NCBI GenBank assembly: GCA_903832205.1 | Contig: CAILAH010000041.1 | Coordinates: 1-40,130 of the forward strand | Reading direction: 5' to 3' | Length of the DNA: 40,130 nt | From: an uncultured Microcaldota archaeon | GTDB lineage: Archaea; Micrarchaeota; Micrarchaeia; CAILAH01 | In this document: in pieces, positions 15,876 through 33,412 of the stretch | How positions within the stretch are numbered: position 1 is the stretch's first letter | How the letters are laid out: each line of letters opens with the position of its first letter | Made by a program: the position numbers and the translations under genes | The notes under the pieces: generated by a model | Database searches by the model: none | What the model saw: only the letters and a program-made list of their open reading frames with translations | Told to the model about the DNA's origin: nothing

Positions 15876-16829
15876 CTATTTTCTTTTTAAGCCTATCAGG
15901 AAGAGGGTTGCATCCGCCGCCAGAAGCCCGATAATGAGCGGGTACGAAAAAACAAAAATAAAGAGAGAAGACGCAAATGGGATTGCGAGAACCTGCTGCG
16001 AAGCTGTAAATGCAGCAATGGACGGGATTGCAAGCCCGAACTTGGCAATCCCAAGCCCGATGATGAATGCCGCCGCGGCCCACAGGTATGCGCGCAGCCT
16101 GTGGCTGTTGACGATTGCATAGAGCGTAAGCCAGGAGAGCAGGAGCATCGCCATGAACGCGCCGAACGCATTAATCACGATCGTTCTTCCGTATTCGCTC
16201 AGCAGGAATCCGTTCACATCGCTCGCAAGCATCACAAACACTGCCGCGGCCCCCCCGAAAATCACAATGAGCGGCGACTCCTTCATGAACTCGCTAGCGC
16301 CCTTAATATCTCCGCTGCTCGATGCCGCGCCCGGCGCAATCACCACCGCCGCATACCACAAAAGCAGCGCCGCGGGCGAGCTGAGCGAACAGATATTCTT
16401 GAGCACAATCTCAAATTTTGAAATCGCATCCGGCAGCAACAGGAACTGCAGCACATCGTACCCGTTCACCAGCGCATAAATGAGTATGAACAGGAGCGGA
16501 AGAAGGATTGTGGGCCCGAACGCAGCAATGAACACCGAAACCCCGCCGAATATGTTCTTCTCATACTTCACCGCCACCTGCCCCTTCTCCTGCTGCAAAT
16601 CCACCCCGATTATGTTGCTCCCGCTCAGAATCGCGGGAATGAGGTGGCCCACAATCTCGTGCAGCATCACTGTAGGCCGATTGAACAGATTGCCGAAGTA
16701 TGGCACTCCCTTAAGCTTCTGGAAGAGGTCGCGGTAAAGGATCACCATCAGCACATGCTGGATTAAACTGAAAATAATGAAAAGAAGGGCAAACAGCCCG
16801 ATATCAAGCAGTGCCTCAAATTCATTCAT
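15876..16829 (-). CDS. Polytopic membrane protein with HExxH, candidate site-2-protease-like (M50) peptidase
   Basis: The 317-residue protein has about eight hydrophobic segments. Near the N-terminus, RPTVMLHEIVGHLIPAILSG contains HExxH within a membrane segment, the zinc site of intramembrane metalloproteases. A plausible third ligand is the Asp of PGAASSSGDIKGA in the middle of the protein, similar in placement to the second M50 motif. If active it would cut membrane-embedded substrates, releasing regulators or clearing signal peptides. A membrane-tethered regulator is encoded at 9227, but no link is shown. Its start overlaps the S26e stop (ATGA), so the two are co-translated. The assignment to M50 is tentative. 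Confidence 0.65.
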   Translation of the reverse strand: MNEFEALLDIGLFALLFIIFSLIQHVLMVILYRDLFQKLKGVPYFGNLFNRPTVMLHEIVGHLIPAILSGSNIIGVDLQQEKGQVAVKYEKNIFGGVSVFIAAFGPTILLPLLFILIYALVNGYDVLQFLLLPDAISKFEIVLKNICSLSSPAALLLWYAAVVIAPGAASSSGDIKGASEFMKESPLIVIFGGAAAVFVMLASDVNGFLLSEYGRTIVINAFGAFMAMLLLSWLTLYAIVNSHRLRAYLWAAAAFIIGLGIAKFGLAIPSIAAFTASQQVLAIPFASSLFIFVFSYPLIIGLLAADATLFLIGLKRK

Positions 16830-17071
16830 TGATTATATTTGCGCATAAGCCTTTTCTTCTTTTTCTCAAAGATCTTCCTGTGCTTTCCGCAGCTTATGCA
16901 GTAGTAAACCTTTCTCATGTCCGTATAGGTAACGTCGTCACCGGTCCTCAACTCCGTGGAGTACCTGACGAACTTGTTATCCTGCACAGCCTTTCCCCTG
17001 GAAACGCTTCTGCCGCACGAGCAGCATGAGACGAGCGCTTCCTTTCCCCTGCTTTTCTTGCCTTTTGACAT
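16826..17071 (-). CDS. rps26e: Ribosomal protein S26e (archaeal eS26)
   Basis: A component of the small ribosomal subunit near the mRNA exit channel. The 81-residue protein has a basic head, a zinc ribbon made of SCCSCGRSVSRGKAV and VYYCISCGKHRKIFEKKKKR, and the C-terminal basic tail, in the same order as eukaryotic and archaeal S26e (C-x2-C ... YYC-x2-C-x-H-x-K). ATG 17071 is chosen over the upstream GTG at 17080 because AGGAG is at the right distance. S26e is found in only part of the archaea, so its presence is useful for placing the organism. It starts just after the phosphoesterase gene (13 bases). Confidence 0.85.
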   Translation of the reverse strand: MSKGKKSRGKEALVSCCSCGRSVSRGKAVQDNKFVRYSTELRTGDDVTYTDMRKVYYCISCGKHRKIFEKKKKRLMRKYNQ

Positions 17072-17084
17072 AATGAGCACTCTC

Positions 17085-17945
17085 CTATTTCAATTGAATA
17101 CCATTCAACAGGTATATTTCAGCCGACCTCTTTATAAACGTATTTTTGAGCAGCGGCCCCAATCCCTCTTTTGAGTCACTTGCGCCCGCATAGGGCCCGA
17201 AAGCGGGCATGCACACAAGCTTTACGCTTCTGCAGATTTTCGCCTTTTTCCCATAATGCTCCTTCAGCGCCTTTGCATCCAGCTTTCCAATCATCCATAC
17301 TTTTTCCGCCCGTCGCCATCCACTGCGGAAGGGGGACTCCCCCCTCGCACATTCGCGTGAGCGAATGGCGCATCGTTTGGCTTCGCCAAACGCTTGTCCC
17401 CGTGTGGTCTGCCCCATCCCCCGCATAATGTCAAACACATATTTGGGATGCGCATGCCCGATAATCATCGTCCTGCACTTTAGCAGTTCCTCGCCGGGCC
17501 AGGCGTGCCCGTGCAGCACCGCAATGCAATTCCCCCGCCCGCAGCCAGTGATTTTTCCTTTGTGCTCCCTGCCAATTACAGCCTCTTCTTTTCCGGGCCC
17601 AATCCTCCCGTCATCATAAATCACCGCACCTTCAGGCCCGTAAACGGTGCAGTACCCGTGATACTTCTCAATATTCCCGTCGTGGTTTCCCTTGGTGATG
17701 TGCAATTCGTAATCGGAGCCCATCTCCCTGATGAATTTCCCCGCATCGCCCTCAGTTGACGCAATTGTCGCCTTAACATCCCCTAAAACAAGCAGTTTCC
17801 TCTTCTGTTCCCTCTCCATAAGCTCGTGCACAATCCTCGCGCTCGCCTTCCAGTTAACGCCTGTCTCCTTCCCAATGTGCAAATCGCTGATGATGAGCCA
17901 CTCGCCAAAAAGGGCTGCGGGCTCATTGTAAAGGAATTTCAGCAT
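17085..17945 (-). CDS. ICC-like metallophosphoesterase with an in-frame palindromic insertion
   Basis: A calcineurin-like phosphoesterase (COG1407-like). Metal-binding motifs are in order: SDLHIGKE (Asp21, His23), GDVK (Asp56), KGNHDGN, HGHAWPGEE and IGHAHP. Members hydrolyse phosphodiesters or phosphomonoesters; the substrate is unknown. From ATG 17945 it is 286 residues. Residues of about 175-207 (QTTRGQAFGEAKRCAIRSRE and onward) are encoded by palindromic element B, which interrupts the normally short path between the GHAHP motif and the RRAEKVWMIGKL strand yet keeps the frame open. The catalytic core is upstream of the insert, so activity may survive. It is divergent from the RSH gene, 54 bases away. 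Confidence 0.85.
   Translation of the reverse strand: MLKFLYNEPAALFGEWLIISDLHIGKETGVNWKASARIVHELMEREQKRKLLVLGDVKATIASTEGDAGKFIREMGSDYELHITKGNHDGNIEKYHGYCTVYGPEGAVIYDDGRIGPGKEEAVIGREHKGKITGCGRGNCIAVLHGHAWPGEELLKCRTMIIGHAHPKYVFDIMRGMGQTTRGQAFGEAKRCAIRSRECARGESPFRSGWRRAEKVWMIGKLDAKALKEHYGKKAKICRSVKLVCMPAFGPYAGASDSKEGLGPLLKNTFIKRSAEIYLLNGIQLK
17325..17421. repeat. Palindromic repeat element, copy B, inside the phosphoesterase gene
   Basis: GGGGG-ACT-CCCCC hairpin, then CATTCGC-GTGA-GCGAATG (17350-17367), then CGTTTGGC-TTC-GCCAAACG (17374-17392), TTGTCCC, the conserved CGTGTGGTCTG (17401-17411) and a terminal ATCCCCC. The order is the same as copy A. It reads through in frame on the minus strand as part of the phosphoesterase. 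Confidence 0.8.
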
Positions 17946-17965: not shown

Positions 17966-17980
17966 TGTTTTTATATTGCT
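17966..17980. promoter_or_regulatory. Shared AT-rich promoter between the phosphoesterase and RSH genes
   Basis: TGTTTTTATATTGC reads as a TATA-like box in both directions, about 20-35 bases from each start codon (17945 minus and 18000 plus). Both messages would be nearly leaderless. Confidence 0.45.
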
Positions 17981-17999: not shown

Positions 18000-19529
18000 A
18001 TGCAGCAGGGCGCAAAGAGGGGATTGTACGGGCACCAGGCACTAAAGGACATGAGGGACAAGGCAGCGGACGCCCTCAGGAAGAAAAGCGTCTCCGTTGA
18101 CGTCATCAACCACAACCAGGAGCTTTTCTATGAGCTTGCCGCAAGCCTCAGGGGCCTCACAACCGGCCACGCGAACGTCAACCCGCAGAACCTCCTTTTG
18201 CTCGCGCTCTATCACGAGAACCTGCGCTCATCTTCGGTGCTTCCCCCGGAAGTGCGCCCGCATATTGGCGGGCTGTTCGAGGAGTTCGTAAGGCTCAAGA
18301 AATTCGACATGTCCGAGAAAAGGGTGTGGACACCCTATTCCGAGCTGGTCGATAGCAACCCGGCGCTTGCGCTCTTCCGCACAATCGATTTGGCACACAT
18401 GCCTTTCGACAAGAAAATACTCGTAAAATCATTCCAATTTGAGGAAAAAAACCTTGACCTTCAGCTGCAGAACATTGCAAAGTCAATGCTTTACGTTTAC
18501 GTCCCGTTCGCGGACATCCTCGGCCTCAGCAACGTGCTGTCAAAGCTGAAGGACACCGCGGTGAGGCATCTCTACCCCGATCTCTACAACGAGGTGGCAA
18601 GAAAGCTGCTTGAGACGCAGAACTACTACCAGGGCGTTAAGGGAATGTTCGCCGAACAGCTCAAGAACGACATCAACGAGGCAAGCGCGCTCTATGGGAT
18701 TGAGTTTGCCAAATTCGCGGACTCGGAGAGCCTCTACAGGTGCCGCATAAAATCGCCCGCGGCAATCGTGCTCAAGCTGCTCAACGGCAATATGCCCATC
18801 GAAAAGATGTTCTCAATCCACGACATAGTCGCATTCACGGTGCTCACCAAATCGGTGGAAGAGGCGTACCTCTTCCTGGAGTTCATGACCGATAAATACA
18901 TAATTTCGCCTGAAAACATAGACGATTTTATCGCGCACCCGCGTGGCGAGACCAAGTACCAGTCCCTGCACGCCGATGTGCCTTGCACGGCGCTCGCAAG
19001 CTCGCCATTTGCCGAGGAGGTTAGCAACAAGAACGTGGAGGTGCAGATGCGCACGCCCGAGATGCAGAAGCAGTATGAGAGCGGCGACTGGGCGCACGCG
19101 CTTTACAAGGGCAACCGGCTTGAAAAGGCGAAGCTGCTGATGGTGACCCAGTACGCGGGCATCCTCAGGAATTCCTCAACGGAAGACGTGCAGATGATGG
19201 CACTGAGCATGAGATCCGGCCGCATCTCCGTTAAGGTCACGTTCAACGGAGCGATCTCAGTTATTGACCTGCCAAAGAACGCCTGCACATTCGACCTTAT
19301 CTGCAAGCTCTCCGACAACCCGTTCAAGAAGCACAACGTCTATTCCGCCACCACGCACAAGCAGTTCGCACTTCTCGAGCTTCTCTTCGCCGATGGCGAT
19401 TACATAATCGAGCAGACCGGCGAGGATATTAAAATCAACACAATTACCAAGAACCTAAGCGTTTATACCGTGGAAACAAGAATGAGGATTGAAGAGCATC
19501 TCAAGGAACTGAAAGCAAAAAAGAAATAA
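18000..19529 (+). CDS. RelA/SpoT homologue: degenerate HD + (p)ppGpp synthetase domain + TGS
   Basis: The 509-residue protein follows the long-RSH plan without the last domains. Residues 1-160 are a degraded hydrolase region: the usual HDxxED is YHENLR (His72), and no second metal motif is seen. Residues 165-200 match the helical linker (YVPFADILGLSNVLSKLKD). The synthetase domain at 230-370 keeps the signature residues: CRIKSPAAIVLK (Arg249, Lys251, Lys259), HDIVAF (Asp275), FIAHPRGETKYQSLHA (320-324 YQSLH) and VEVQMRTPEMQKQYESGDWA (Glu347). Residues 408-475 are a TGS domain (VKVTFNGAISVIDLPKNACT). Such enzymes move pyrophosphate from ATP to GDP or GTP to make the stringent-response alarmone. 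A TTG at 17976 is an alternative start. Confidence 0.82.
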   Translation: MQQGAKRGLYGHQALKDMRDKAADALRKKSVSVDVINHNQELFYELAASLRGLTTGHANVNPQNLLLLALYHENLRSSSVLPPEVRPHIGGLFEEFVRLKKFDMSEKRVWTPYSELVDSNPALALFRTIDLAHMPFDKKILVKSFQFEEKNLDLQLQNIAKSMLYVYVPFADILGLSNVLSKLKDTAVRHLYPDLYNEVARKLLETQNYYQGVKGMFAEQLKNDINEASALYGIEFAKFADSESLYRCRIKSPAAIVLKLLNGNMPIEKMFSIHDIVAFTVLTKSVEEAYLFLEFMTDKYIISPENIDDFIAHPRGETKYQSLHADVPCTALASSPFAEEVSNKNVEVQMRTPEMQKQYESGDWAHALYKGNRLEKAKLLMVTQYAGILRNSSTEDVQMMALSMRSGRISVKVTFNGAISVIDLPKNACTFDLICKLSDNPFKKHNVYSATTHKQFALLELLFADGDYIIEQTGEDIKINTITKNLSVYTVETRMRIEEHLKELKAKKK

Positions 19530-19562: not shown

Positions 19563-22259
19563 CTAAGTCCTTTCTCCGTATTCGTCAAGGAATTTCTTGT
19601 ATTCTTCAAGCATCTCCAAAGTGAGCGAGGGCTTTCTCCTGCTCACCACGCTGAGCACATCCTCAGTCGTTAATTTGCCCTCCTTCTTTCCGGCAATGCC
19701 TTCCCTCACCATCCCGAACTTTGCCTCCTGGCACGCGCTGTTGATGTCCGCGCCCGTGAATCCCTCGCTCGCCGCTGCAAGCGCGGCATAATTGATGTCC
19801 TCCTTGGGCACCTTCGCAAGGAACTTCTGGAACATGTCAACCCTCTGCTCCTTCAATGGCGGCGGTATGAACACAATCTTATCAAGCCTTCCCGGCCTCA
19901 TCAGCGCCTTGTCAAGCATCTCCGGCTTGTTGGTTGCGCCAATGAGCACCACGTTCTTCAGCTCTTTCATCCCGTCCATTTCCTGAAGTATCTGCGTCAC
20001 CACGTCCTCCACATACTTCGAGCTGTAGAGGTCCCTTGAGGGCGCAACGCTCTCAATCTCATCTATGAACACTATGGCGGGCGTATTCTCCCTCGCCCTG
20101 TTGAATGTCTCCTTAATCACCGCAACCGCCCCCTCATATCCCTTCTTCAGCAGGTCGGCGCCGCTCACCGCGAACACATTCACCTTCATCTCATTTGCAG
20201 CAGCCTTCACAATGAGCGTCTTTCCGCACCCAGGCGGCCCGAACATCAGCACACCCTTGCTAGGCTTCACATCATACTTCTCCAGCAATTCCTCGTGCAG
20301 AAGCGGGATCTCAACCGCCTCCTTGAGCATCCTTCGCACTTCATCAAGCCCTATGACGTCATCCCAGGTGACGGTCTTCTCCTTCTCTTTCTCATCCTCG
20401 CCGACCCTCCTCTCATAATCAAGCTTGAACCTCTCGTAATCGTCAAGCATGGTGAGCGAAGTGCTCGGCTTCACCGACTTGAGCACCCTGAGGAAATCGT
20501 CCATTCCCACAGGAAATATCTTTCCCTTCTCCGCAGCCCTGTTGGCCGCGAGCCTTGTTGCCTCATTGCAGAGGTTTGCAATGTCCGCGCCCGAGAACCT
20601 CTCGGTCTTCTTCGCGAGCACCTTCAGGTCAACGTCCTTATCGAGCGGGATTCCCTTCACCTGCACCTGCAGCACTTTCAGCCTGCCCTCCGCATCCGGC
20701 AATGGCATGTAGATTATCTTGTCCAATCTTCCCGGCCTTATGAGCGCCTTGTCAAGCATGTGGGGCACGTTGGTCGCGCCCACCACAAGCACCGAATTAT
20801 CAGAAGTCAATCCGTCCATTTCCTCAAGCATGGTGCTCAGCACCCTGCCCGCCGCCTCATCGCCGCGCGCATACTCCCTGCTCTTGCCGATGGCATCTAT
20901 CTCATCGAAGAACAGCACCGCGGGCGCACTCTTCCTTGCAATGTTGAATATCTCGGTCACGTTCTTCTCCGATTCCCCGAAGTACTGGGAAAGCAGCTGT
21001 GATGCTTTCACGTAATAGAAGCCCACTTCCAATTCCTTGGCGAGCGCCCTCATTATCAGCGTCTTACCGGTTCCGGGCGGCCCGAACAGGAGTATTCCCT
21101 TGGGCGGCTTGATGTTGTAGGCCACACTGATGTCCTTTCTCTGCAGCGGCATGAGTATGGCGTCCCTCAGCTCCTTTTTCACATCCTCATAATTGCCGAT
21201 GTCGCTCAGCTTTGTGGTCGATGCGAGCCCCAAATCCTGCACGCCGAACTTGCCGAACTTCCGCTCCTTGTCCTTGAGAATCGCACCCGTCTGCCCAGCA
21301 ATGTTGAATTTCCTGATGTCAAGGTAATACACGAGCGCCGTAGTTAGCGCCACGTAGATGATTATTTCCCAGTGGAAGGGATTATTCGTCCACAGTGCGA
21401 ATACATAATAGAGTGGGACCAGCAGCCAGAACACGATGGTGGCGGCAGTCTGCCTGTATTTGCCCCTTATCACTCCCGGCAGGAATGATGCGAGGTACAT
21501 GATTGCGCCAATTGCAAGTATCTGAAGCAGCCCCACATCGGCAAAGAACAGCGTCATGGTCGTGCTTATGGTCAATCCCAGCAGCGGGTTAATGTAAGCG
21601 AACACATCGGGGCTGAACATGCCCAGGAACGCCTGCGTGACCGCACCGGGCATGCTCATGAAATCCACCGGCATCTTCTGCGGCATTAAAATCTCAACGG
21701 GAATGTTGCTCTTGAGCGGCGCATAGAGGGCGTGGTTGACCACCATGAACGCGCCGTTGTCGATGCCCCACATCGCCGTGAGCAGGAGCACCAGGTAGAC
21801 TGCGGGAAGCGTAACCAGCGGGCTCTTCTTTGCCCCCAGCCTCAGCGCCGAGATGAACATGATTGGAATAACGATGCCGCCGAACAGCCCCATTCCCTTT
21901 GCGAACGGCGCAAATATGAGGATCTGCAGCAGCGCAAGCACAAACCAGTAGTTGAATGCGGTGACAAGGCTGATGGAAAATGCGAGCGTGAATATCCACC
22001 CGAGCACGGGCGTCTGGTATGCCACTGCAATGTTGCCCACGAGCACGCTCAGTATGGTGCCCATTACCGGATGATAATAGGCGGCGGCTGCGGGTATGAG
22101 CGCTATGAACGGGATTGCAAAAAGCGGGAATATCGGGAATGCCAGCAGCACCGATAGGGTTGCTATATACACCAATACGGCCGCCAGGAACTTCTCATCC
22201 TTCTCCAGAGTAACAACGATGGCCTTGACTTTTTCCCTGTAGAGGTTGCTACTGGGCAT
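19563..22259 (-). CDS. Membrane-embedded Cdc48/VAT-like double AAA+ ATPase
   Basis: The 898-residue protein has two AAA+ modules of the Cdc48 type: D1 has Walker A GPPGTGKT (393-400), Walker B FFDEID (450-455) and GATNVPHMLDKALIRPGRLD; D2 has Walker A GPPGCGKT (674-681), Walker B FIDEIE (731-736) and GATNKPEMLDKALMRPGRLD. Both modules look catalytically complete. The usual substrate-binding N-domain is absent; residues 25-315 instead form about ten transmembrane helices, followed by a short linker. The ring should therefore sit on the cytoplasmic membrane face and pull proteins from the bilayer, handing them to the proteasome or another protease. There is no FtsH-type zinc protease or Lon domain. 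Its TATA (GTTTATAAAG, about 22283-22292) adjoins palindromic element C. Confidence 0.9.
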   Translation of the reverse strand: MPSSNLYREKVKAIVVTLEKDEKFLAAVLVYIATLSVLLAFPIFPLFAIPFIALIPAAAAYYHPVMGTILSVLVGNIAVAYQTPVLGWIFTLAFSISLVTAFNYWFVLALLQILIFAPFAKGMGLFGGIVIPIMFISALRLGAKKSPLVTLPAVYLVLLLTAMWGIDNGAFMVVNHALYAPLKSNIPVEILMPQKMPVDFMSMPGAVTQAFLGMFSPDVFAYINPLLGLTISTTMTLFFADVGLLQILAIGAIMYLASFLPGVIRGKYRQTAATIVFWLLVPLYYVFALWTNNPFHWEIIIYVALTTALVYYLDIRKFNIAGQTGAILKDKERKFGKFGVQDLGLASTTKLSDIGNYEDVKKELRDAILMPLQRKDISVAYNIKPPKGILLFGPPGTGKTLIMRALAKELEVGFYYVKASQLLSQYFGESEKNVTEIFNIARKSAPAVLFFDEIDAIGKSREYARGDEAAGRVLSTMLEEMDGLTSDNSVLVVGATNVPHMLDKALIRPGRLDKIIYMPLPDAEGRLKVLQVQVKGIPLDKDVDLKVLAKKTERFSGADIANLCNEATRLAANRAAEKGKIFPVGMDDFLRVLKSVKPSTSLTMLDDYERFKLDYERRVGEDEKEKEKTVTWDDVIGLDEVRRMLKEAVEIPLLHEELLEKYDVKPSKGVLMFGPPGCGKTLIVKAAANEMKVNVFAVSGADLLKKGYEGAVAVIKETFNRARENTPAIVFIDEIESVAPSRDLYSSKYVEDVVTQILQEMDGMKELKNVVLIGATNKPEMLDKALMRPGRLDKIVFIPPPLKEQRVDMFQKFLAKVPKEDINYAALAAASEGFTGADINSACQEAKFGMVREGIAGKKEGKLTTEDVLSVVSRRKPSLTLEMLEEYKKFLDEYGERT

Positions 22260-28936: not shown

Positions 28937-31900
28937 TTAGTAAACCGAATATGTATAGAGCAACCAGAATTCCCAGGTTACCTGCTCGCTGCCCATGCCT
29001 GTCGTGCTCGTTTGCCTTGAGGTTGCGCCCGGAGTCTTAAATCTCCCGACAGGTATTGCCGGAATATTTTCGACCGTGGTCGTTGTCCCTACAAAGTTTG
29101 TGAGCATATTGACCTTGGCAGTTGCCTGGAAAATATGGCCGCTGTATAACGTACCTGTTGCAGTTAGCAGGAATTCCTTTTTCGCAATTTCCGGATTCTC
29201 GCCCCAAGTAAATAGGGCATTGAATGCATTCTCATCAAACAACAGGTACTTCCAACCTCCGCCAAATCCAACAGATGCAAGCCACGCATTTCTATTGGGG
29301 TCAACAAGCGGTATGCCTAAGTCCAGATTGAGCCTCTTTTCTAACTCAGTGAGCTGCACCTTTGCTATTTTCTCCTTATCACGAGTCTGGACCTTTAGGC
29401 CGCCATATGCGTCTATCCATCCGCCATATATGTAGTACCTTCCAAACGCAGCAGTCTCATAGGAATTTACGCCCAGCCCCTCCTCCTTTTGGTATGAGAT
29501 GGGCAACGCGATTAAATGGAACTTCCCTTTTTGCGCGGTCAAGCCCAAGCCGCTTGTCCACAGTGTCCCTTCAATTCCAGGCTTCTCATCCTTTGCGAGC
29601 CTGCCGAACAATCCGGTAACTGACAGCTTGAAATCGCTCTCTTCAAATATATTCCAAAGCGTGAGCTTGCCCACAGCTCCCTTGCCGAGAATATCGCCCT
29701 CGGGTGCACTGGTCACTTCAAGCTCATATTTCCCAACAAGCGCATCAACGCCTGCCAGGTGCTGCACCTTTTGTGCGAGCTCCTCAACCTTTGCGCCCGC
29801 TATGTAATACAATCTGATTTCCTTGCTGTCGCCCTTGAATGAGACTTCCGCTCCTGCGAACACCTGGTCATTTTTGCTGGTTGCATCCGTATCATATATC
29901 GTAATTGCTTTTGCTTCCCATGATTCGCCGATAAACTTAGCCGCGAAATCCGCTCCCCATCCAAACTGTTTCTGGCCGATGAGCGAGCCAAGCAGGAAGG
30001 CGGTTTGCTTCTTATTGGACACATAGGCAGTGCCGCCGTAGACACCGCCCTCCTTAAATTCGCCGTAAAGCCCCCCTCCAGCCATAAGGCTGTCTCCGAC
30101 GTATTTATATACGGCGCCGCTCCTTATGATGTCCGTGACACTCAAGAACACAGAACCGTACTGCTTTTGCGATTGCACGAATATTACTTCACCCGCGCCG
30201 CCGTTCTCCGCGCGGCGTTTCAAGTCCTCAAGCGTTGCGCTTGGGCGTGCACCAATCTGCGGCTCCTCAAGCTGCGTTGTGCCGCTTGTCTGCTGCGGGT
30301 TTTCGGAAAGCATCCTTCTCTGCGCAAGCAGGTTTTTGAACTCCGGATTTTGGTAGTAAAGCACCGCGCCCACAAATTTTGGGTCTTCAAACTCAAGGCT
30401 TGCGAGCCCCAGGCCTTTTTGCGGACCCTGAAGCTTATTCTCAAAAACGCCGCCAGCACCAACTTTTCCAAGCTGCGTTAATGCTTCCACGCCTTCAAAA
30501 TTGCCCTTTGTCGTTTTGCTTTCAAATATATCCTTGTTGAACAGGAGAAGGTGCGAGTATCCCACCTGCACTGATTTGCCATCTGTAAATCCATTGCCCT
30601 TCCCGTCCTCTATTACCTGCCTGTAGAATGCATAGACCTGTTGCGCCTGGTCATAGGTCAGCTCTAAAGTACCGGCGTTAACGAATGAGCCGCTGGGCTG
30701 CCTTCTCATTATCTCCACTTCAAACTTTCTCCTGTAATCCTTCTCCCCGAGCGTCTGCTCGTCAAACTTGAGCCTCGCCGCGCTGGTGGCGCCATGTGCA
30801 TTATGGTCAAGCCAGAAGTTGAGCAGCTTCTTCTCCTCAAGTATTCCCGCATCCTCAACCGTTTTTATACCGCCCGGAACTGTTGGGCCCAGGCTCGTCT
30901 GTTTGGACAGGTCAGTATTTTTGTCCCAATCATAATTGAGTTTCTGCTCGATTATTTGGCCGTCAGCAAACGGGATATTGCGCGTCCTCTGCTCAATCTT
31001 TAGTTTTGCATTCTCATTCTCAAACGTCCTTGTTTCAGATGAGAGCGCCCCGCCCTGCTCTGTTGATTTTGACTGTTCAGAAAAAGAACCACCCGGCATG
31101 CCGCCTTCAACCTTTGCATAGGCTTCCCTGCCAGGACCGCCCCCAGCTACCCCTCCTTTCACCTGCCAGCTTTCAGTCTCGCTCTTTGAGGTCGTAGTCT
31201 CCTTAAAATCTGTGCTTTGGGTCGCCGTGCCGGAAACATTTTTCGTTCCGGCTCCGCTGCCGCCCAAGTTTCCACCGAAAAAGGTCCACTCTCCAGGTAT
31301 GATTGGCCCGCTGTCTTCAAGTGCGTACAAGTCCATGCCTAGCGCAGGCACCGTAATGTATCCCTGCGGCGTGTTGACGTTAATGGACGCAATTTTACCC
31401 ATGACTTTCTCATAGGCCCTGAAGAAATTCGTCACCAACCTTGCGGATTTTAGGTCCTCGTTATTATACAGGTTAATGAATTCTGAGATGCGCGCCGGCT
31501 GGCCCCCGACCATAGTGTAATTCATTGCCTGTAGATTCGTCTTCTCGAAAAGCGTAAGTATTGTGTTGATGTCTATGCTCCCGCTTGCCCTGAAGATATC
31601 CATCAGTTCCTTGCCGCCGGGGCTGCTTATAGTAACGCTCTTGGGCCTTTCCCTTCGGGATTCCCTTATTCTATACACGTTCCACTCAAGCAGGAAGGCA
31701 AACTTGTTCTCAAGGCTGTTGACATATCCCTTGAGGTTATCATAATCATAGGCAAGCTCCCTCGCCTGGGTTCTTGAGCCAATGAATGTCATAATGCGGT
31801 CTATGTCGTCGACCCTGAAGTTCTTGTACACAAGCTCCCCGTCCTTTTGTAGGAAGTAGGCAGATGATTTGGGGGAGAGGTTGCCCAAGCCGACAACGAA

Positions 31901-33412
31901 CGCGGCAAACCTCTCGCTGTCAGGCACTACCGCGCCGCCGAAGTTCCTCTTCATGAACTGCATCAATTCGTACTGTGTTTCCAAAGGCAGCCCGTTAAAT
32001 GCAATAAGGACGGAGCCCCCGTCATACTTGCCTGCAATAGGGGTGTTCGTCAGCAGCGTATTCATCTGCGTCTTGAACTTGACAAATTCCTTGTCTGCGG
32101 CAATCTTCTGCATGAGCTCAAGCATTGCGGTCGGGCTCTGGGTGTCCATGCCGTTTTTTGTTGCAAAATCAAATTGCCAGGGGTATGCCTCATAAATCTT
32201 GAACACCTTTGCAAGCGGGCTTTTCCCGCCCGCGAGCTTGCCGATTGACATCTGCATTGCGTTCTTTATGAGTGCCTCTTCCGTGCCCGGCGCCGCCGTT
32301 TTTAACGCGTTTGTTAAATCAGCGTAAATGTTCAGCAGGGTCTTTCCATTGGTGATGTAAAGCTGTAGGGTGCTCTGCAGATCGTTGGCAACGGTCACTT
32401 TCTTGCCCTTTGCCATCTCGTCCCCGATCTTCATTTGCGCCTCCTCATCCAGCCAGTAGGCACCGAAATGTTTCATGAACACCTCGTTCACGGCTTTCTT
32501 CTGAAGCCCGGCATTCACCTTATCCCGTTCATTTTTTTTCTCCTCAAGCTCCCCGTAATGCGAATACTGGCTGCTGAGCGTGTTGTATATCCTTTCAACC
32601 TCTTCCACCCATTTGGCCCCGACATATTTCGTCCAGGGCTTTTCGGTGCTATGGTCGATATACGGATTTTGCAAGTATTCCTTCAGCCTTAATGCATGTG
32701 CTTCAGCAGTCTTTGTGGCTTCCTCAACAAGGTCCTTTTCAGTCCTGCCGCTCTTAACAACGGGCTGTTTTAGGAATTCCTCCTTTGCCCTCTCCGCCTC
32801 ATTAAGTTTCCTTTCAGGTTTCTTTGCCTCCTGCTTGGGCACGGCAACCGTTTCCATTACCTGTTTTTGCGCCGGCGTCTGCGCCATTACCCTACCTGTT
32901 GCATCCTTTACGTCCTCATTTGCCATCTGTTCAAAATCTTTTGTCATTGGCCCCTTTTTCGGATTATCAATCTTATACTGTAGGTTGGCGTAGTAGTACA
33001 AAAGTCTCAGGCCGAGGTAGTTTTTTGTTTTCGTGAATTCATCGTAGTATTTCTTATACTTGTCGCCCAGCTTGTCCTGCCCGTCAGTTTTAAGCCAATC
33101 TCCCCTTTCAGCCCCAACCTTTGGGTCTTTGTTGAGAAAATTGTCGTCCCTTACAAGACCCTTATAACCGGCCTGGTAAACCTGCTCTATTAGCGGTTCG
33201 AACTTCTTCTGAAGCTCCTGTTCCTTTGAAATTTGTTGTTGAGCATTTGCCACGAGTATTCCCTCTCTCATTGTATCCTTATCCTTCATCCTTTTTATTT
33301 CTTTCGATAGGGCGAGTTTTTCAGAAGTGGTTGCAAAAACGGGGCTGGCTGCAAATATCTGTCCCGCAATAAGCGTCGCTGCCACAGCTCTTCGGAAATA
33401 GTACGATTTCAT
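28937..33412 (-). CDS. Giant cysteine-free secreted protein, C-terminal third beta-barrel-like
   Basis: The 1491-residue protein is not recognised. A signal peptide (AVAATLIAGQIFAASPVFA, cleavage after Ala27) is followed by a long helical, Lys/Glu-rich region to about 700, a Gly/Ser/Thr-rich segment (about 720-830, FFGGNLGGSGAGTKNV and SGTATQ), mixed alpha/beta sequence, and from about 1130 to the end a series of strands that alternate polar and hydrophobic residues with aromatic ends (GGGLYGEFKEGGVYGGTAYV, RYYIYGGWIDAYGGLKV, TWEFWLLYTYSVY). I see no cysteine in the protein. The last residue is Tyr. The pattern resembles a membrane or surface beta-barrel, though an extended beta-solenoid is possible. 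It is the last gene of the four-gene operon, 46 bases after its neighbour. Confidence 0.8.
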   Translation of the reverse strand: MKSYYFRRAVAATLIAGQIFAASPVFATTSEKLALSKEIKRMKDKDTMREGILVANAQQQISKEQELQKKFEPLIEQVYQAGYKGLVRDDNFLNKDPKVGAERGDWLKTDGQDKLGDKYKKYYDEFTKTKNYLGLRLLYYYANLQYKIDNPKKGPMTKDFEQMANEDVKDATGRVMAQTPAQKQVMETVAVPKQEAKKPERKLNEAERAKEEFLKQPVVKSGRTEKDLVEEATKTAEAHALRLKEYLQNPYIDHSTEKPWTKYVGAKWVEEVERIYNTLSSQYSHYGELEEKKNERDKVNAGLQKKAVNEVFMKHFGAYWLDEEAQMKIGDEMAKGKKVTVANDLQSTLQLYITNGKTLLNIYADLTNALKTAAPGTEEALIKNAMQMSIGKLAGGKSPLAKVFKIYEAYPWQFDFATKNGMDTQSPTAMLELMQKIAADKEFVKFKTQMNTLLTNTPIAGKYDGGSVLIAFNGLPLETQYELMQFMKRNFGGAVVPDSERFAAFVVGLGNLSPKSSAYFLQKDGELVYKNFRVDDIDRIMTFIGSRTQARELAYDYDNLKGYVNSLENKFAFLLEWNVYRIRESRRERPKSVTISSPGGKELMDIFRASGSIDINTILTLFEKTNLQAMNYTMVGGQPARISEFINLYNNEDLKSARLVTNFFRAYEKVMGKIASINVNTPQGYITVPALGMDLYALEDSGPIIPGEWTFFGGNLGGSGAGTKNVSGTATQSTDFKETTTSKSETESWQVKGGVAGGGPGREAYAKVEGGMPGGSFSEQSKSTEQGGALSSETRTFENENAKLKIEQRTRNIPFADGQIIEQKLNYDWDKNTDLSKQTSLGPTVPGGIKTVEDAGILEEKKLLNFWLDHNAHGATSAARLKFDEQTLGEKDYRRKFEVEIMRRQPSGSFVNAGTLELTYDQAQQVYAFYRQVIEDGKGNGFTDGKSVQVGYSHLLLFNKDIFESKTTKGNFEGVEALTQLGKVGAGGVFENKLQGPQKGLGLASLEFEDPKFVGAVLYYQNPEFKNLLAQRRMLSENPQQTSGTTQLEEPQIGARPSATLEDLKRRAENGGAGEVIFVQSQKQYGSVFLSVTDIIRSGAVYKYVGDSLMAGGGLYGEFKEGGVYGGTAYVSNKKQTAFLLGSLIGQKQFGWGADFAAKFIGESWEAKAITIYDTDATSKNDQVFAGAEVSFKGDSKEIRLYYIAGAKVEELAQKVQHLAGVDALVGKYELEVTSAPEGDILGKGAVGKLTLWNIFEESDFKLSVTGLFGRLAKDEKPGIEGTLWTSGLGLTAQKGKFHLIALPISYQKEEGLGVNSYETAAFGRYYIYGGWIDAYGGLKVQTRDKEKIAKVQLTELEKRLNLDLGIPLVDPNRNAWLASVGFGGGWKYLLFDENAFNALFTWGENPEIAKKEFLLTATGTLYSGHIFQATAKVNMLTNFVGTTTTVENIPAIPVGRFKTPGATSRQTSTTGMGSEQVTWEFWLLYTYSVY

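Follow-up and report, generated by a model that had tools for sequence, protein, structure and literature searches.

The window analysed here, a single stretch of 40,130 nucleotides, carries a gene that bears on whether archaea use ppGpp-type alarmones. The model archaea tested, which lack RelA/SpoT homologues (RSHs), have been negative, as no (p)ppGpp was detected in H. volcanii or S. acidocaldarius, both of which are without RSHs (PMC8646023). The 2011 RSH survey named the absence of long RSHs as a feature of archaea; the RSHs that it did report there, divRel of Methanosarcina acetivorans and SAHs, are archaeal like the present protein but are single-domain synthetases or hydrolases (PMC3153485). 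RelA/SpoT genes have been published for Diapherotrites and for Woese-, Pace- and Nanoarchaeota, where they were ascribed to transfer from bacteria (PMC8407392). A sequence-only reading of the window took the gene for a long RSH of apparently synthesis-only type, with an intact-looking synthetase site, a degenerate HD region and a TGS domain, and saw a candidate alarmone module in it and a divergent metallophosphoesterase gene whose product could act on nucleotides. Here we ask what this gene encodes and whether it is a genuine part of the archaeal genome.

A long RSH gene in a Micrarchaeota genome

The gene is a complete ORF of 509 codons with an ATG start (Table 1). The ORF listing gave a TTG start at 17976, which was rejected because this codon sits within a TATA-like box, so ATG 18000 is preferred. 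The position of the box would fit a leaderless archaeal transcript.

In the Pfam search, PF04607 (RelA_SpoT) matched residues 249-372 with 63.4 bits (curated cut-off 27; E 2.9e-17), the region (230-370) in which the sequence-only reading had placed this family. The whole-genome search gave E 1.5e-18 for the same protein and found no second PF04607 gene in the host genome, which is 82% complete. The NCBIfam model TIGR00691 (spoT_relA) matched with E 8.3e-30, its 103.7 bits being far under the 499.2-bit cut-off. The nearest solved structures by sequence are Rel and RelA (E 8.6e-10 and weaker), and the full-length AlphaFold2 model (pLDDT 82.7) matches B. subtilis Rel (E 8.8e-14), ribosome-bound RelA and full-length SpoT over 517-532 alignment columns. 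The window protein is a long RSH in which an HD-like, a synthetase, a linker-helix and a TGS-like part follow one another. The Pfam match, the full-length model and the synteny bear out the claim of a long RelA/SpoT homologue in an archaeon.

Table 1. Features of the RSH locus (positions in the window; residue numbers refer to the RSH protein)
Feature	Position	Strand	Basis or remark
Ribosomal S26e-like gene	16826..17080	-	PF01283 25 bits, cut-off 27
Divergent calcineurin-like phosphoesterase	17085..17945	-	PF00149 1.3e-5; TIGR00024 3.9e-13, under its cut-off
TATA-like box TTTATATT	17969..17976	+	about 25-30 nt upstream of ATG 18000; read directly in sequence
Long RSH gene, 509 aa: HD-like, synthetase, linker helices, TGS-like, C-terminal helix	18000..19529	+	ORF, PF04607 and model
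HD-like N-terminal domain, residues about 10-156, without HD-Asp or ED pair	18027..18467	+	alignment; model
H38, counterpart of first metal-ligand His of Rel HD	18111..18113	+	invariant in 4 full-length family sequences; in most other long RSHs of phylum
H72, His of former HD motif; next Asp lost (H-E-N)	18213..18215	+	at least 90% conserved in 17 divergent sequences
D130, counterpart of last metal-ligand Asp (LADR motif)	18387..18389	+	family and phylum alignment
Synthetase domain, residues about 230-373 (PF04607 249-372)	18687..19118	+	Pfam, model, hhalign
ATP-site residues R249, K251, K259	18744..18776	+	alignment to E. coli RelA, family conservation
D275, Mg2+ ligand	18822..18824	+	Asp in all 40 phylum sequences that have a residue at this position
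T280, replaces second adenine-stacking Arg (E. coli RelA R280, RelSeq R269)	18837..18839	+	T/M/M/T in family
YQSLH 320-324 (Y320 guanine stacking, H324)	18957..18971	+	alignment
E347, catalytic/Mg2+ Glu	19038..19040	+	alignment
Two helices between SYNTH and TGS, at position of Rel 'Core'	19125..19208	+	model helices 376-389, 394-403
TGS-like domain, residues about 405-478, without CCA-contacting His (RelA H432)	19212..19433	+	hhalign, alignment
Double-AAA (Cdc48-type) ATPase, convergent with RSH; order same in two relatives	19563..22259	-	

The window is one entire contig of a 1.1-Mb genome in 70 contigs, and the host belongs to the Micrarchaeota. All five genomes of the host's family have the RSH gene, the copy in G001 being a C-terminal fragment at a contig end. 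When the contigs of the genome collection were searched, the single protein as query gave no matches and the family alignment gave three family members. Genes for the phosphoesterase, the S26e-like protein and a membrane protein flank the RSH gene in all three relatives in which that side is assembled. The AAA ATPase gene lies downstream in the two relatives in which that side is assembled and shared, and not in G004. Bacterial contamination of the contig was rejected because the gene order is common to independently assembled Micrarchaeota genomes.

Synthetase site

By hhalign, residues 157-375 align with the canonical SYNTH domain at E 1.6e-31. The synthetase residues named by the sequence-only reading (Arg249, Lys251, Lys259, Asp275, YQSLH and Glu347) are all where it put them, and the alignment to E. 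coli RelA gives R249, K251, K259, D275, Y320, H324 and E347 as present. The other three full-length RSHs of the family share only 33-41% identity with the window protein. These four sequences share 69 invariant positions out of 509, and all seven of the active-site residues are among them (chance 6.4e-7). Across the phylum, in 41 RSHs, K251, K259 and D275 occur in all 40 sequences with data, Y320 in 41 of 41, and H324 and E347 in 40 of 41. The acidic xxDD motif is like the EFDD of E. coli RelA and not the RxKD of SpoT.

In other synthetases two arginines sandwich the adenine, R241 and R269 in RelSeq (PMC7983052) and the corresponding R78 and R112 in SaRelP (PMC5794853). This sandwich, which is typical of characterised synthetases but is not needed for membership of the superfamily, is incomplete in the window RSH: R249 is kept, and the second position is T280; the other three full-length sequences of the family have Thr or Met there. 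In addition, A255 stands where other family members keep the Ser that contacts the alpha-phosphate. The description of the site as intact-looking therefore holds for the seven catalytic residues and fails at the second clamp arginine, a position absent from the list on which it was based. Judged from the sequence, the nucleotide pocket is nearly, not fully, intact.

HD-like domain

The HDxxED motif is gone from the window RSH, and with the loss of the HD-Asp and the ED pair the hydrolase motif H..HDxxED..D is incomplete. The same residues are missing from essentially all of the divergent long Micrarchaeota RSHs compared. However, three of the four known metal ligands of the HD domain, whose metal motif is H..HD..D (PMC8177086), are retained as H38, H72 and D130; they are invariant in the family and present in the majority of the phylum's divergent long RSHs, whereas E. 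coli RelA keeps none of these ligands. The domain is thus degenerate, as first described, in its HD-Asp and ED pair but not in its H..H..D ligands. Since these ligands are conserved, and since SpoT H54A/H78A is unable to bind Mn2+ (PMC9974481), the domain probably binds metal through H38, H72 and D130.

By sequence profile alone, hhalign found no link between this domain and the canonical HD domain. We therefore turn to structure: a model of the domain made without canonical Rel rows reached a pLDDT of 91.5, and its best 25 PDB matches were all HD structures of RSHs or small alarmone hydrolases (E 0.011 to 0.59, probability 0.87-1.00). In the four full-length family sequences, 29 invariant positions fall in residues 1-156 and 40 in the remaining 353. 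Because invariance is no lower here than in the rest of the protein, simple decay does not account for the state of the domain. With the HD-Asp and the ED pair lost, it is not expected to hydrolyse alarmones by the known mechanism. The proposed synthesis-only character is therefore likely, with the retained H38, H72 and D130 as the point that speaks against it.

Linker, TGS-like domain and C-terminal end

Two predicted helices occupy the position of the 'Core', a region on which synthesis by Rel and RelA depends (PMC9974481). Pfam gave no TGS match in the window RSH. With hhalign, the family aligned to the canonical TGS at E 4.4e-4 with a probability of only 33% and 61 columns in register, and three controls gave 0.19-0.79. 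The TGS domain that had been said to follow the synthetase thus stands as a TGS-like domain on the basis of hhalign and structural alignment, in spite of the Pfam result. In the alignment, this domain has no counterpart of RelA H432, the TGS histidine that touches the CCA end of tRNA (PMC7058999).

The window RSH resembles bacterial RelA, Rel and SpoT in the order of HD, SYNTH, helical linker and TGS, in its synthetase residues and in the full-length structural match, and its HD domain is without catalytic residues as is that of RelA. Unlike them, it ends at residue 509, after the TGS and one helix, and the helical, ZFD and RRM/ACT domains are absent. It also differs from bacterial long RSHs in lacking the second adenine-clamp Arg and the CCA-contacting His of the TGS, and in keeping H..H..D despite the loss of the HD-Asp and ED pair. 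Since there is neither a CCA-contacting His nor a ZFD or RRM, activation by starved or stalled ribosomes in the manner of RelA is unlikely.

Distribution and phylogeny in Micrarchaeota

PF04607 was found in 66 of 301 Micrarchaeota genomes. Together with the genes published for other DPANN groups (PMC8407392), this makes the initial view that RSH genes are rare in archaea outdated. In a tree of 42 sequences, the host's family forms one clade (98/94) beside sequences of family f14 (85/85 for the wider group), and the canonical Rel of f3 groups with E. coli RelA and SpoT. The f3 proteins (L044, L065, L066) belong to the same phylum and superfamily but, unlike the window RSH, have a strong HD_4 match, an intact adenine clamp and a TGS. 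Canonical Rels of the phylum are about 20% identical to the window RSH, and the f3 gene is probably a separate acquisition. The RSHs of f5 and f11 have the remodelled HD domain yet keep the clamp arginine, so the change in the HD domain may have preceded the loss of this arginine; this order is tentative, as the deep branches are weak.

HD_4 proteins encoded by separate ORFs co-occur with PF04607 above expectation (22 genomes, odds ratio 4.4, Fisher p 2e-5, uncorrected for relatedness). One with an intact HDxxED is present in two family genomes, and none was found in the host genome (82% complete) or in G003 (93% complete).

Several other proteins came to light in this comparison. The separate HD_4 proteins in two of the five family genomes (L087:898-2100 and L088:841-2100) have 400-419 aa, with HDVIED and HDIIEE at the HDxxED site and a C-terminal half without identification; they are candidate alarmone hydrolases. 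The canonical long Rels of f3 match HD_4 at E 1e-42 to 1e-45 and have HDxxxD for HDxxED, the frame of L065 being 942 codons. In family f14 there are tandem pairs of divergent RSH genes (L055:4132-7143 and L056:3371-6370; also G086, G088 and G090). In L055 and L056 one copy stops before the TGS and has Lys for the first ATP-site Arg (KPKGVGG), and the pair could be heteromeric. A second type of RSH, about 355-390 aa long, consists of the synthetase only (EIQIRS..LQHAWATA; L046, L052, L064 and L068-L072); its close similarity across f4, f8, f12, f14 and f16 suggests lateral transfer.

Proposed function

We consider it fairly probable that the window RSH is a (p)ppGpp-type synthetase that is dead in hydrolysis, perhaps with the HD domain as a metal-stabilised regulator, and with altered sensing. 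The PF04607 match, the full-length model, the invariant active site, the acidic xxDD motif, the syntenic occurrence in all five family genomes and the helices at the Core position lead to this reading. The gene would be a vertically inherited long RSH gene, whose product would take pyrophosphate from ATP and attach it to the 3'-OH of GDP or GTP, yielding (p)ppGpp. The HD domain would no longer hydrolyse this product by the known mechanism, and with metal probably bound it would regulate the synthetase structurally or allosterically; switching on by stalled ribosomes would be unlikely. Against this reading stand T280 and A255, the failure to detect (p)ppGpp in the RSH-less H. volcanii and S. 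acidocaldarius (PMC8646023), and the lack of a separate HD_4 protein in the host and in G003.

It is possible, though unlikely, that the substrate has changed and pyrophosphate is transferred from an altered donor or to an altered acceptor, such as another NTP or the 3' CCA end of tRNA. Toxic small alarmone synthetases (toxSAS) are reported to modify tRNA at this end. The family and most f14 sequences have only half of the adenine clamp (13 of the 15 family and f14 sequences compared lack the Arg), which points to an altered donor site with the transfer residues kept, and the TGS is retained yet altered. However, the guanine-stacking Tyr, the His and the Glu are strictly kept, and no toxin-like gene was seen near the RSH gene, which lies in conserved chromosomal synteny. 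A little less likely is a broader scheme in which Micrarchaeota have their own long-RSH branch: the HD domain would have been rebuilt as a non-canonical metal site and the donor pocket changed afterwards, so that a different pyrophosphorylated nucleotide is made or sensed under ribosome-independent control. Such an archaeal alarmone system would stand apart from the stringent response of bacteria.

Less likely again is a pseudoenzyme, with both sites inactive and a role as nucleotide-binding regulator. The window copy has lost the clamp Arg and the alpha-phosphate Ser, and it diverges fast, with 45% identity to the RSH of a genus mate as against 81% for the neighbouring ATPase. Nevertheless, the seven catalytic or substrate residues are invariant in the family despite this divergence, whereas a dead synthetase such as the pseudo-SYNTH of A. 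baumannii SpoT loses such residues (PMC9974481). The adenine-stacking arginines are lost there too, while the window RSH keeps the other clamp Arg and the guanine Tyr. The least probable alternative is that the protein is still bifunctional, its remodelled HD site (H38, H72 and D130, with E73 or N74 for the Asp) hydrolysing alarmones in a modified way. Three of the four ligands persist across divergent lineages, in contrast to E. coli RelA, and no other HD_4 hydrolase was found in the host genome. Against this, the HD-Asp and ED pair are missing nearly throughout, and two family members have a separate HD_4 protein with an intact motif.

With its synthesis site mostly intact, and its hydrolase domain and C-terminal part rebuilt, the window RSH is a candidate archaeal enzyme of a stringent-response-like kind that lends itself to testing. 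It is a syntenic, family-wide RSH of a named archaeal lineage, and its catalytic residues are under evident constraint. Its natural changes, namely T280, H..H..D without the HD-Asp, the loss of the CCA-contacting His from the TGS and the lack of ribosome-docking domains, can each be compared separately with the well-characterised bacterial Rel. The DPANN RSHs of PMC8407392 are alike in being RSHs of small-genome archaea; the passage on these genes does not name Micrarchaeota and describes no changes of domains or active sites. Apart from that source, which names other DPANN phyla, no literature joining Micrarchaeota with ppGpp was found.

Neighbouring genes

The proposed alarmone module with the divergent metallophosphoesterase was not supported. 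The phosphoesterase is present in 32 of the 41 Micrarchaeota genomes searched. At its 26 loci outside the family (1.5-kb flanks), the S26e-like gene adjoins it in 19 and this RSH gene in none. The phosphoesterase was therefore rejected as a specific alarmone partner, its conserved neighbour across the phylum being the S26e-like gene. Its adjacency to the RSH gene is no evidence of a module, because it follows from the site that the RSH gene occupies in this family. The phosphoesterase segment of about residues 166-211 is missing from the relatives and may be an inserted repeat in the window copy; two short stretches at other places in the host genome (G000:C3:19962-20063 and G000:C13:8442-8546) are 88% and 63% identical to it.

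A defence or toxin role of the RSH was also rejected, as the only PADLOC match was a weak one, in the synthetase region, to the candidate model PDC-S33 (E 6.1e-6). A viral structure library gave only partial matches to the model, over the synthetase fold. Elsewhere in the window, positions 28937-33412 hold an ORF of 1491 aa without any Pfam match. The ORF after it, of 647 aa, shows weak peptidoglycan-binding-like similarity (PF01471, 20.6 bits, under the cut-off).
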